Below the pieces are notes generated by a model. That model saw nothing but the letters and a program-made list of their open reading frames with translations. It had not been told where the DNA came from and did no database searches. The position numbers were made by a program, and so were the translations under genes. This document shows positions 33,192 through 37,911 of a DNA stretch of 64,000 bases, piece after piece; the first letter of the stretch is position 1; the number at the start of each line of letters is the position of its first letter. Location: assembly GCA_030065235.1 (NCBI GenBank), contig JASJDC010000003.1:62001-126000 (forward strand). The letters run 5' to 3'. The stretch comes from Alphaproteobacteria bacterium. Its GTDB lineage: Bacteria; Pseudomonadota; Alphaproteobacteria; UBA8366; Aestuariispiraceae.

Positions 33192-33592
33192 CTCATAGTC
33201 GCCGATAGCGTCAGCGTTGAGAATTTGACGATCTCGAGAGCGATAAAGGCGCCATGAAGCGGCGTCTCGCCCGCCCGGTTTCCGTTGATGACCGCCACGG
33301 TCCGCGTGTCCAGCGTCGGCATGACGAGGAGGCGTTGGATCCCAAAGATGAGGATGGGGGCGGCCATCCACGGCCAGTTGGGATTGGAGCTGGCGAGCAA
33401 TGACAGGATCAGACCAACGCAGAGGACGGCTTCAGTAACCCCAATCCAACGGAATTGGGCGCGACCGACCTCGAGGGCCGTTGGCAAGTCCAGAGATGGC
33501 GCGCGGAACTTGGCAGGCGCCGCCACCAGTGAGCCGCCGAGAGACACACCTGCCCAGATCAGCGCAAAGGCCGGGACCAGTGTGTCAGTCAT
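33188..33592 (-). CDS. Small integral membrane protein of unknown function
   Basis: A 134-residue protein with four likely membrane helices: about residues 5-25, 50-68, 74-92 and 110-130. It starts inside the stop of the truncated globin gene (ATGA overlap), so the two are coupled. I do not recognise the family. The genetic link to a globin and an NsrR-like regulator suggests a role in handling nitric oxide or oxygen at the membrane. This is inferred from context only. Confidence 0.8.
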   Translation of the reverse strand: MTDTLVPAFALIWAGVSLGGSLVAAPAKFRAPSLDLPTALEVGRAQFRWIGVTEAVLCVGLILSLLASSNPNWPWMAAPILIFGIQRLLVMPTLDTRTVAVINGNRAGETPLHGAFIALEIVKFSTLTLSATMS

Positions 33593-34044
33593 TGGGTCGT
33601 TTTCGGCGCGCCGAGACCCGGCACGCCGAACATCGCGAGTTGCAGACTCTGGGCGATACGGCGCGCACGCTCCATGAAGAATGGCACGGCCTCGGGTGTT
33701 GGCGCCGTATCTTTGAGCGTCTGTTCAAACAGGCCGAGCCAGATGTTGAAATGCCAGGGCTGGATCGACGTATGTTTCCGATGGGCGGGAACCGGCTTTC
33801 CGGAATAGCGCCCGGCGCTTAGCGCCACCGACGCCCAAAAAGACTTCATCTTTTCAAGATGGTGGCGCCAATCGTCTCCGATCGCATTAACGAATATCGG
33901 GCCAAGCAAAGCATGGCCTCTTATACGCCCATAAAATGTTTCCACCAGAAGTGAGATATAGGCGTCGTCGATGCCGAGGGCGGCCGCGTGGGCTTGGATC
34001 TCGGCGCGCCTTTCGTCGGCGCTTCGGGCGCGGAGTTCGGTCAT
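33589..34044 (-). CDS. Group III truncated hemoglobin
   Basis: A 151-residue globin of the TrHb group III (P) type. Features seen are LVETFYGRIRGHALLGPIF in the A-B helices, the segment HLEKMKSFWASVALSAGRYSGKPVPAHRKH, and the likely proximal His in IQPWHFNIWLGLF (about residue 97). Group III globins bind O2 and NO. It overlaps the Rrf2 gene before it and the membrane gene after it by 4 bases each, giving a three-gene coupled operon. Regulation by the Rrf2 protein is likely. Confidence 0.93.
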   Translation of the reverse strand: MTELRARSADERRAEIQAHAAALGIDDAYISLLVETFYGRIRGHALLGPIFVNAIGDDWRHHLEKMKSFWASVALSAGRYSGKPVPAHRKHTSIQPWHFNIWLGLFEQTLKDTAPTPEAVPFFMERARRIAQSLQLAMFGVPGLGAPKTTQ

Positions 34045-34481
34045 GCGGCTTCCTCCTTCAAGAGATCGTACAGAGCGGAATTGCGGCGGGTGAGATCGTC
34101 GATTGTGTATCTGTCCAGCACCGCAAAGAAGGCTTCTTGGGCTTCAGCGAGAACGCCCTTGAGTTTGCAAGCCGGGACAATGAGGCATTGACCAGGACCG
34201 CCCGGAAAACACTCTACAAGCGCGCTCTCCGCTTCGAGCCGCCGGGCTATGGCCCCGACGCTGATGTCGGACGGGGCGTAGGCGAGCCTTAGACCCCCGG
34301 CGCGCCCGCGAACCGATTCCACAACGCCGTGACCGCTCAAGAACTGGGCGACCTTCATCAGGTGGTTTTTCGAAATTCCATATCTTTCGGCGATCTCGGC
34401 GATTGTCGACAGCCTGTCCCGGTTAATCGCGAGATGCATGAGCATGCGCAAGGTGTAGTCGGTCTGAACTGTAAGGCGCAT
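34041..34481 (-). CDS. Rrf2-family regulator, NsrR-like
   Basis: A 146-residue winged-helix regulator. MRLTVQTDYTLRMLMHLAI opens the domain, as in NsrR, and KNHLMKVAQFLSGHGVVESVRGRAGG is the recognition helix and wing. Three cysteines (CFPGGPGQC then IVPAC, spacing C-x7-C-x5-C) are placed as in Fe-S-binding NsrR, whose first spacing is usually x5. NsrR senses nitric oxide by damage to its cluster and de-represses NO defence genes. GGAG precedes the start. The truncated globin gene is coupled to it, which supports the NO role. Confidence 0.88.
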   Translation of the reverse strand: MRLTVQTDYTLRMLMHLAINRDRLSTIAEIAERYGISKNHLMKVAQFLSGHGVVESVRGRAGGLRLAYAPSDISVGAIARRLEAESALVECFPGGPGQCLIVPACKLKGVLAEAQEAFFAVLDRYTIDDLTRRNSALYDLLKEEAA

Positions 34482-34499
34482 CGAATTTCTCCATAAATC

Positions 34500-34561
34500 A
34501 TGCATCTTATATATTGCAATCCGGATGACGCCGCAATAAATAAAATGTATCTTAGATACAT
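34500..34561. promoter_or_regulatory. Divergent overlapping promoters with an Rrf2/NsrR-type operator
   Basis: A perfect inverted repeat, ATGTATCT-T-AGATACAT, spans 34545-34561; a related half-site, ATGCATCTT, is at 34500-34508. For the forward gene, TTGCAA (34514-34519) and TAAATA (34537-34542) are spaced 17 bases. For the Rrf2 gene in reverse, TTGCGG (34531-34536) and TATATA (34508-34513) are also 17 apart. The palindrome would cover the forward start of transcription, and the half-site touches the reverse -10. NsrR sites have similar AAGATGCAT-type arms. Confidence 0.6.
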
Positions 34562-34575
34562 AATTGGGGGTGAAG

Positions 34576-35046
34576 ATGTTTGATGACCAACGTATCGCGC
34601 TAGATCTGGATCCGCATGAGGACCTGGAAGAAGCCGTCAATGACAATCTTGCGAACCAGGTGAAGCCAACCCCGTTGTCTTCCGCGTATCATGGCGCGGA
34701 GGTCAACACCGCCGTACATGACGGGGTGTTCGGGATTTTTATCGGGTTATTCGCCGCGATCCTGGCGGTGTTCTATCTGACATTCAGCCAGAGCGGCGAA
34801 TCCGTCTTCATGATCGCGATTTGCGCGTTCTATGGGGCGATGTATTTTGGAGCGCCCGCGCTGTTCCGCCGTATCTCTAAAGAGAAGCGGCGGCGAAAAG
34901 ACTGGTCGTCATTCCTCTCGGAGCCGCTTTCGACGAATACTGGGATGATTTCGGGGCGGGCGGCGCTTCTTCAAATATGCCTCGTTCCGGCGGCGCTGAC
35001 GATCTGTGTGACGGGCATCTGTATTATCGTCGCGCTGGTCCGGTAG
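34576..35046 (+). CDS. Predicted membrane protein of unknown function, probable Rrf2/NsrR target
   Basis: A 156-residue protein. The first 60 residues are acidic and hydrophilic; membrane helices follow at about 58-78, 82-100 and 133-155, with a basic cytoplasmic loop (ISKEKRRRKDW). The ATG at 34576 has GGGGGTGAAG upstream; a TTG 12 bases before is less likely. No family is recognised. It is divergent from the NsrR-like gene and its promoter carries the perfect palindrome, so it is probably expressed under nitrosative or related stress. A bidirectional terminator follows. Confidence 0.78.
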   Translation: MFDDQRIALDLDPHEDLEEAVNDNLANQVKPTPLSSAYHGAEVNTAVHDGVFGIFIGLFAAILAVFYLTFSQSGESVFMIAICAFYGAMYFGAPALFRRISKEKRRRKDWSSFLSEPLSTNTGMISGRAALLQICLVPAALTICVTGICIIVALVR

Positions 35047-35152: not shown

Positions 35153-35542
35153 CTAGGGGAGAGCGACGCAGCGCGAGACAAGCCGTGAGCAGCGCGTGAT
35201 GCTGCCGAAACCCCAACCGGCGCGATTATCGGACCTGACCCGGGTTACACGGCCGTCCACGACATAGAAGTCGAAGACGCAGGCGCGCGCGTCGGCGGTC
35301 GGTTCAGGTTTCGGGGTGGCGAGTGTTCGGTCGCCGGTGTCGAGAGCCTGTGCCGACGAATATCGCCATACTTCATTCCCGGCGGCTGTGTTGATGAATT
35401 GCGGTTCACCAATGCACTGTTCGATCGTGGCGACGGGTTCTCCGACAAGATCCGTCTTGGCCTGACGCACAGTATGCAGATGCGGAGCGCCGCAACCGGC
35501 GAGGAAACAACCGCAGATTAGAGATAGGACAAGCTGTCTCAT
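35153..35542 (-). CDS. Small lipoprotein of unknown function
   Basis: A 129-residue lipoprotein: residues 1-17 are the signal and FLAGC is the lipobox, with the lipidated Cys at 17. The mature part has EPVATIEQCIGEPQFINTAAGNEVWRYSS, which recalls SmpA/OmlA (BamE)-like small lipoproteins, and two further cysteines. It overlaps the previous gene by 4 bases. It is probably anchored in the outer membrane facing the periplasm. The BamE-like resemblance is weak. Confidence 0.75.
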   Translation of the reverse strand: MRQLVLSLICGCFLAGCGAPHLHTVRQAKTDLVGEPVATIEQCIGEPQFINTAAGNEVWRYSSAQALDTGDRTLATPKPEPTADARACVFDFYVVDGRVTRVRSDNRAGWGFGSITRCSRLVSRCVALP

Positions 35543-36003
35543 GGGACTCTCCTCAGTGTCAGTGTTTTGTCTTTGATGCGTCCGGCGGAGATAAAGCCGT
35601 CGCGGATATTGAGTCCGAGCAGGACGAGGTTCAGCGCGCCGGCGATCAGTTCAACTGTTTGGACCGCCTGAAACATTGGCCCGAAATCCTGATGGGCCGC
35701 CCTGTTCGCAAGGAACAGCGCCGCCGGGATCAGAACCAGGCAGCCATTGGCGACGATGAAAGGCATTCGGCGGCGTTTGGCGCCGATGCGCTGGTCGTCT
35801 CGGTCGCGCGACTGCACGAAGCCTGTGCCCCCGGCCGCCGCCATCGCGGGGATTAGGATGAAAAAGCCCCACGGTATCGCCAATTTGACGGCTGTAATCG
35901 CTTCGGGTGAGCCGGAAAGTTTCGTGGCGACGGTGCCGCCGAAGAACGCAGCGACACAAGCGAATGCGATTCCGCCGGCGATCGGGTGAATGGCCTTAAT
36001 CAT
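35539..36003 (-). CDS. Four-helix membrane protein of unknown function
   Basis: A 154-residue membrane protein with helices at about 8-27, 40-60, 84-102 and 112-130. The start at 36003 has GGAGG (reverse strand) 7 bases upstream. Arg/Lys-rich loops (QSRDRDDQRIGAKRRR) put the central loop in the cytoplasm. It recalls the membrane protein at 33188-33592 in size and helix number, and shares a coupled operon with the small lipoprotein. No function is evident. Confidence 0.75.
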   Translation of the reverse strand: MIKAIHPIAGGIAFACVAAFFGGTVATKLSGSPEAITAVKLAIPWGFFILIPAMAAAGGTGFVQSRDRDDQRIGAKRRRMPFIVANGCLVLIPAALFLANRAAHQDFGPMFQAVQTVELIAGALNLVLLGLNIRDGFISAGRIKDKTLTLRRVP

Positions 36004-36459
36004 ATTTGACCTCCTTGGCGGTAGATTTGCGGTCGCCATCACTTCCTCGGCTAACGAGACTTGCTCATCGGACGTGGGGGGTCCCGACCTTCCCGTTCGT
36101 CGCGGCCGCGAAGGAACTGGAACATTTCTTCGCGTGATTGGTGAATTGAAGACCGGTTCGGGACACAGACCCCACTTTTGCTTCGAGAGATATGCGATTG
36201 GTTATTCGCAGACGCTCCAATAACTCAACTGCATAGCATGCTATATAACAATGCATAGCATGCTATGCAAGTAGAAAATGATGCGCGCTTCGTACCGCTG
36301 TAGCGCCGCCGCCACGTCCGACTGTCGCCTGCTGACTGTCGCGACGCAGGATGTTGGAGACGCGGGCGCCTGGGAAAATCCTCAATCGCGCTGCTTGACG
36401 GTGGCGGCGCGCGAACGGGCGCCGTATTCTTCCGTGTGATTTCCCATCTTTGCGGACCT
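36004..36459. other. 456-base non-coding region between divergent genes
   Basis: No convincing gene is seen here. Short open frames on both strands lack ribosome sites and are broken or repeat-driven, including one whose N-terminus simply encodes the palindromes. The notable content is the pair of palindromes at 36231-36269. The rest holds the promoters of the reverse membrane gene and the forward transglycosylase gene, which I cannot place exactly. Confidence 0.6.
36231..36269. promoter_or_regulatory. Tandem palindromic operator-like repeats
   Basis: TGCATAGCATGCTATGCA at 36252-36269 is an 18-base perfect palindrome. Its core GCATAGCATGCTAT also occurs at 36231-36244, 22 bases away, which puts the two copies on the same face of the helix, about two turns apart. 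This is a classic operator-pair layout. The protein that would bind is unknown; no regulator gene adjoins it. Confidence 0.6.
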
Positions 36460-37911
36460 ATGAGACCTGCCATGCGGCGAATTCTACTGCTGTTGTCGTT
36501 GATCGGTTTGGCGTCGATACCGACGCATGGCGCGGCGCTGGCCGATGCGAAGCGCGATCCAGAGGCGTTGCTGCAGGACGCGCTTGCCCCCTGGACTGGG
36601 GATTTCGATGGCGTCAAAGAGCGCGGCTTCTTGCGGATCGCCATTCCCTACAACCCGCTTTTCATGGCCTTCGACGGCGACAAGCGCATCGGTCTCGCCG
36701 TTGAGGTGGAGCGCGAACTGGAAGCGTTTCTCCTGAAACAACACAAGGCCCGGATCGCTGTCGTCCTGATGCCCAAAGCCCGAGACGCAATCATTCCCGC
36801 CGTTGTCTCGGGGCGCGCCGATGTGGCGGTCGCCAACCTGACGATCACGGCCGAACGCGCGAAGGAGATCGATTTCACCAACCCGACGCGAAAGAACGTC
36901 TCCGAATTGGTCGTCACGGGGCCGTCGGCGCCCTCGGTCACGACGTTGGACGACCTTGTGGAAACCGGTCTGAGCTTGCGAAAATCCAGCAGCTACTACG
37001 TCCACCTTCAGGAACTGAACGACCGCCGCCGCGCCGAGGGCAAAGAACCGATCCCGGTCACCGAAATGGACGAAACCCTGGAGGATTATGACCTGATTGA
37101 AATGGTGCAGTCGGGGATCCTGAGCGCCACGATCGTCGATCAACACAAGGCCGAGTTTTGGGCCAGGGTCTATGACGGGATCACCGTGCATCAGGATCTG
37201 GCGATCCACACCGGCGGCGAGATCGCCTGGGCCTTGCGCAAGGACACGCCGGACCTGATGGCGGTCATGAACGCGTTCGTCGCAACGGTGCGTCAGGGGA
37301 CCCTGCTCGGCAACGTAATCGCAAACCGTTATTTCGGACGCACGGATTGGGTCGAGCGAATCGACTCAAGCGAGGCGTTAAAGCGCGCCCAGGCGCTGAT
37401 CCTGTTCTTCAAGACATTCGCCAGCGAATACAATCTCGACCCGCGGCTGTTGATTTCGCAAGGGTATCAAGAATCGCGGTTGGACCAATCCAAGCGCAGC
37501 AAACGGGGCGCAATCGGCGTCATGCAAGTCCTGCCTTCGACAGCGAAAGATAAGTCGGTAGGTATTCCTGACATAACCGACGCGGAGAACAATATTCACG
37601 CCGGCGTACGCTATCTGCGGTTCCTGCGGGACCGTTATTTCAGCGATGAGGCGATCGCCCCATTGGACCAGGTCATGTTCGGTTTGGCGGCTTACAACGC
37701 AGGACCGGCGAACATCGCGAAGGCGCGTAAGCGGGCGGAGACAATGGGGCTTGATCCGAACGTCTGGTTCGGCAATGTCGAGATCGCCGCCGGCAAGTCA
37801 ATCAGCCGCGAGCCGGTGATCTATGTCCGCAATATCTACAAATACTCTGTGGCCTATGCGCTTCTGGAAGATCTCTGGCGCCTTCGTAGCGAAGCCGTTA
37901 CGCCGAACTAG
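36460..37911 (+). CDS. MltF-like membrane-bound lytic transglycosylase
   Basis: A 483-residue two-domain protein. After a signal peptide (cleavage near ALA, about residue 29) comes a family 3 solute-binding-type domain (about 50-275) with the phrase VSGRADVAVANLTITAERAKEIDFT. The C-terminal SLT domain (about 300-460) has catalytic Glu in SQGYQESRLDQSKRSKRGAIGVMQVLPSTA. This is the MltF arrangement, cleaving peptidoglycan to 1,6-anhydro products in the periplasm. A second ATG at 36472 is equally possible. The next gene is OmpA-like, fitting an envelope group. Confidence 0.9.
   Translation: MRPAMRRILLLLSLIGLASIPTHGAALADAKRDPEALLQDALAPWTGDFDGVKERGFLRIAIPYNPLFMAFDGDKRIGLAVEVERELEAFLLKQHKARIAVVLMPKARDAIIPAVVSGRADVAVANLTITAERAKEIDFTNPTRKNVSELVVTGPSAPSVTTLDDLVETGLSLRKSSSYYVHLQELNDRRRAEGKEPIPVTEMDETLEDYDLIEMVQSGILSATIVDQHKAEFWARVYDGITVHQDLAIHTGGEIAWALRKDTPDLMAVMNAFVATVRQGTLLGNVIANRYFGRTDWVERIDSSEALKRAQALILFFKTFASEYNLDPRLLISQGYQESRLDQSKRSKRGAIGVMQVLPSTAKDKSVGIPDITDAENNIHAGVRYLRFLRDRYFSDEAIAPLDQVMFGLAAYNAGPANIAKARKRAETMGLDPNVWFGNVEIAAGKSISREPVIYVRNIYKYSVAYALLEDLWRLRSEAVTPN

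Follow-up and report, generated by a model that had tools for sequence, protein, structure and literature searches.

A paired palindrome in an alphaproteobacterial genome as a probable double operator of a MarR-family protein encoded on another contig

The window analysed here (a stretch of 64,000 nucleotides) carries two related palindromes between divergent genes, and the question is which protein they serve when no regulator gene adjoins them. An earlier note had described an 18-base perfect palindrome that is repeated 22 bases away. The right-hand copy (O1) is indeed perfect, with its core ATAGCATGCTAT at 36255-36266, but the left-hand copy (O2) is only related to it, starts at 36230 rather than 36231, and is symmetric solely over the 12-bp core ATAGCATGCTAT (36233-36244). 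The window thus holds a single perfect 18-mer palindrome and a single perfect 12-mer. The spacing had been given exactly, as the two cores lie 22 bp apart and O2 starts exactly 22 bases upstream of O1. Symmetry of this kind was said to be improbable by chance, in agreement with our counts: 2 matches with ≤3 mismatches were observed in the window against 0.01 expected from dinucleotide-preserving shuffles, and 0/100 shuffled windows reached 2. No convincing genes were found within the intergenic gap, which the note had called otherwise empty, and the regulator gene nearest to the pair, of the Rrf2 family, is 1.6 kb distant. The features in the window are:

36252-36269, no strand: site O1, distal operator half, TGCATAGCATGCTATGCA, a perfect 18-bp palindrome
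36230-36247, no strand: site O2, proximal operator half, TGCATAGCATGCTATATA, with 2 mismatches
36242-36270, minus strand: predicted promoter, TTGCAT (36270-36265), 17 bp, TATATA (36247-36242), from cross-species alignment, facing the membrane-protein gene
36004-36229, minus strand: leader of the membrane-protein gene, unusually long
35539-36003, minus strand: predicted target, a 154-aa four-helix membrane protein with homologs beside paired public loci
35153-35542, minus strand: lipoprotein-like open reading frame, sharing 4 bases with the end of the membrane-protein gene
36436-37911, plus strand: solute-binding plus lytic transglycosylase gene, MltF-like, divergent from the membrane-protein gene

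We propose, with a probability of about 0.9, that the palindromes are a double operator of a MarR-family repressor that is encoded on another contig and would act in trans on the membrane-protein gene. Searching the 4.18-Mb genome (19 contigs) returned no further copy of the core ATAGCATGCTAT beyond the window pair, while the relaxed form ATAGCNNGCTAT has exactly 4 copies, all within two pairs. The motif is thus not scattered; a wide scatter in coding DNA without positional preference was what the earlier note had named as speaking against its reading. The second pair, on contig C2 at 554172-554206, consists of ATAGCAGGCTAT and ATAGCGTGCTAT, 23 bases apart, and lies between a marR-family gene, at whose start the sites are located, and a divergent ABM-type monooxygenase gene. 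The C2 sites differ from the window sites at two central bases, and each locus is far from the ends of a long contig, the two not being adjacent. The suggestion of two dimer sites with a regulator encoded elsewhere is therefore supported, since the sole other pair in the genome flanks the following gene:

G000:C2:553724-554173, minus strand: MarR-family protein, 150 aa, with Pfam matches above the cut-offs

The C2 MarR matched PF01047 with 59.8 bits (cut-off 24.6) and PF12802 with 50.9 bits (cut-off 27), and it is presumably a repressor. None of the named NCBIfam equivalogs reached its cut-off, as the scores were 50.3 bits for BilQ (cut-off 125), 49.4 for OhrR (200), 37.4 for SlyA (120), and 22.8 for HpaR (121). 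Its 150-aa sequence contains no cysteine, and an OhrR-type thiol switch, which depends on a reactive cysteine, is therefore excluded. When the proteins of this genome were compared with the group of MarR proteins encoded next to such sites in other genomes, the C2 MarR scored 201 bits and the next paralog 53; judged by these scores, it is the one clear ortholog here. In the tree, the site-adjacent MarRs including the C2 MarR formed one group against the paralogs of the genome (86/92, a moderate support in a tree with long branches). Among the site-adjacent MarRs, the segment of the recognition helix (EQATMANTLxRMERDGLI) hardly varies. With regard to the C2 MarR itself, its specificity could have drifted, since its branch is longer than those of close relatives and the central two bases of its own sites differ.

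To follow the pair across species, we scanned bacterial and archaeal genomes for ATAGCATGCTATGCA and obtained at least 117 loci, chosen by the DNA string alone. Among the matches listed, a second core was found nearby in 49 of 117 loci (43 of the 49 spaced at 22 bp), an ortholog of the C2 MarR (E < 1e-20) adjoined 45 of the 49 paired loci, the locus ended ≤450 bases from the site in the remaining 4, and 65 of 68 single-core loci were without such a MarR nearby, so that paired cores and adjacent MarR orthologs were strongly associated (Fisher p = 6e-24). The pair thus accompanies this regulator in dozens of species, which further supports a regulator of the window sites encoded elsewhere. A homolog of the window membrane protein stood beside 38/49 paired loci and an ABM gene at 11/49, again among the matches listed, and the usual order there was marR-pair-membrane gene or marR-pair-ABM-membrane gene, with marR divergent. 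When the genes at these listed paired loci were clustered, the two leading families were those of marR and of the membrane gene; the rest was mostly antisense open reading frames and genes common to subsets of loci, the latter apparently lineage-specific.

Within the class, a less biased sample agreed with this: the exact pair occurred in only two of 385 genomes besides this one, both with the MarR ortholog adjacent, one with the membrane-protein gene and the other with the ABM gene. In the same family, genomes G003 and G010 have a slightly degenerate pair with marR on one side and the membrane gene on the other, in divergent orientation. Two further genomes (G012 and G034) have the membrane gene and lack both the pair and a clear MarR ortholog, their best MarR match being 90 bits and none, respectively, compared with 163-224 bits for orthologs. 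The only high-scoring exceptions seen were the MarRs of G001 and G004 (163 and 185 bits), which occur without the pair; the membrane gene is also absent from these genomes.

The sites are placed on a promoter. O1 overlaps the predicted -35 element and O2 the -10 element, and nearly all 22-bp pairs have TTGmAT-17-TATATA directed toward the membrane gene; in these the -35 adjoins the first palindrome and the -10 the second. A sigma-70 consensus scan did not list the window promoter because the agreement of TATATA with TATAAT is only fair. The distance from the operator to the ATG is 229 bp in the window versus 10-31 bp in most other membrane-gene loci. The scan result and the length of the leader both count against the proposed operator reading. 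A repeat element was suspected in this long leader but was not supported, as the leader has no further copies in the genome. No RNA family in Rfam matched the leader at the gathering score, and a sub-threshold match to a microRNA family was a chance one caused by the palindromes.

It is common for a MarR operator to regulate the genes to its left and right where these diverge, and the window pair is itself symmetric and lies between two divergent genes. It is therefore conceivable, though unlikely, that the same MarR operator has the plus-strand transglycosylase gene (36436-37911) as its main target, or serves both genes. The conserved promoter layout, however, faces the membrane gene, whose homologs accompany the pair elsewhere, whereas no transglycosylase was present among the largest gene clusters at paired loci (among the matches listed). 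It is very improbable that another regulator binds the pair, such as the Rrf2/NsrR-like protein (34041-34646), which is encoded closest to it, or one of the MarR paralogs of a genome with about two dozen MarR_2 family matches. With the four copies of ATAGCNNGCTAT all assigned, none is left for the gene of any paralog. Ten more distant MarR paralogs in relatives were also inspected and were all without the pair (0/10), and paired sites elsewhere adjoin this one MarR clade. A structural, replication-linked or termination role, which the earlier note had also considered in part, is hardly credible in spite of the perfect symmetry and of a weak terminator-like hairpin formally listed at 36252-36269, because intrinsic terminators were not above chance (1 site versus 0.9 expected in shuffles) and the pairs occupy only two places in the genome, both before genes, and co-occur with marR across species.

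Under the preferred reading, that of a double operator for the C2 MarR, two MarR dimers would bind the two ATAGCNNGCTAT sites from one side of the helix. One would sit on the -35 and the other on the -10/start region; together they would cover the whole minus-strand promoter and so silence the gene of the 154-aa membrane protein (36003-35539). Cooperative binding of the dimers is plausible, since the spacing of 22 bp is close to two helical turns and is conserved in 43/49 paired loci among the matches listed. In most MarR systems, repression is relieved by a ligand. A small-molecule ligand would here free the repressor, and the membrane gene, marR and the ABM monooxygenase gene would be induced together, the latter two by way of the operator pair of this kind that they share on C2. 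Elsewhere, marR and the membrane gene are in most species divergent neighbours with one pair between them; in this genome the two halves stand apart, each with a pair of its own. The module may have been split here, or the target may have arrived separately with its operator.

The spacing and number of cores vary at some of the public loci. Five of them (L012, L027, L051, L089, and L099) space their two cores by 26-28, roughly half a helical turn beyond the usual 22, with marR and the membrane gene unchanged, and these loci offer a natural test of whether phasing matters. At L194:1400-1458 (genome G265), a run of three ATAGCAAGCTAT cores, spaced by 23 and 24 bases, lies between marR and an ABM gene, possibly as a triple operator. 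Two actinobacterial loci, L076:3850 (Allokutzneria), which also encodes the membrane protein, and L045:3664 (Actinomycetospora), have a related MarR and a single core only; the paired form may therefore be a proteobacterial elaboration. Single longer perfect palindromes (18-22 bp) on the same core were also seen in unrelated bacteria (L019, L022, L042, L048, and L063), where those of L022 and L063 adjoin more distant MarR genes.

Concerning the predicted target, no convincing family match was obtained for the membrane protein in Pfam or NCBIfam. Its structure model is a confident four-helix one (pLDDT 92.7), and a comparison of the model with the PDB returned no significant fold match. The lipoprotein-like open reading frame is probably cotranscribed with the membrane-protein gene. 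It is an evenly poised proposition that the MarR protein, the ABM monooxygenase and the four-helix membrane protein together form an undescribed alphaproteobacterial chemical-response module (perhaps for quinones or similar electrophiles), which would be split into two loci here with the double operator kept at both. Elsewhere in the window, the minus-strand interval 33589-34646 encodes the Rrf2-family regulator, which is RirA/NsrR-like but scores under the named cut-offs, and directly after it a 151-aa protein. The latter resembles a truncated hemoglobin by eye and has no Pfam match, and the two together suggest a nitric-oxide or iron response unit.

If the double operator is read correctly, regulator, operator code and target would be assigned for an unannotated membrane-protein family and an unnamed MarR clade in dozens of mostly alphaproteobacterial genomes. 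The genome would also be a clean natural example of a regulator and its target set apart with the same paired operator at both, useful for the study of small-regulon rewiring, and it illustrates how genome comparison can lead from an orphan palindrome to its regulator. An incomplete literature search found neither paired ATAGCNNGCTAT sites 22 bp apart nor the MarR-ABM-membrane combination. Control by MarR repressors through palindromic operators in promoters is of a known kind, and the small regulon described here appears to be previously undescribed.

With regard to known systems, PA3341 (2fbh), HosA (8aga), and SlyA (3q5f) were among the best whole-domain PDB sequence matches of this MarR group and are its relatives at the family level only. 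In Campylobacter, RrpA/RrpB and MdaB are reported as a case of MarR control of quinone/redox enzymes (PMC8765430). The two systems are alike in that a MarR protein is tied to small redox-enzyme genes, but the proteins and the genes are different, and the likeness is a functional analogy only. Also similar in design are the repressors MarR, SlyA, OhrR, HpaR and their relatives, which likewise have a palindromic operator over the promoter, a regulator divergent from its target, and a copy of the operator at the regulator gene; in contrast to these, the operators here are paired 22 bp apart, and the targets encode an ABM protein and a membrane protein of no known family.
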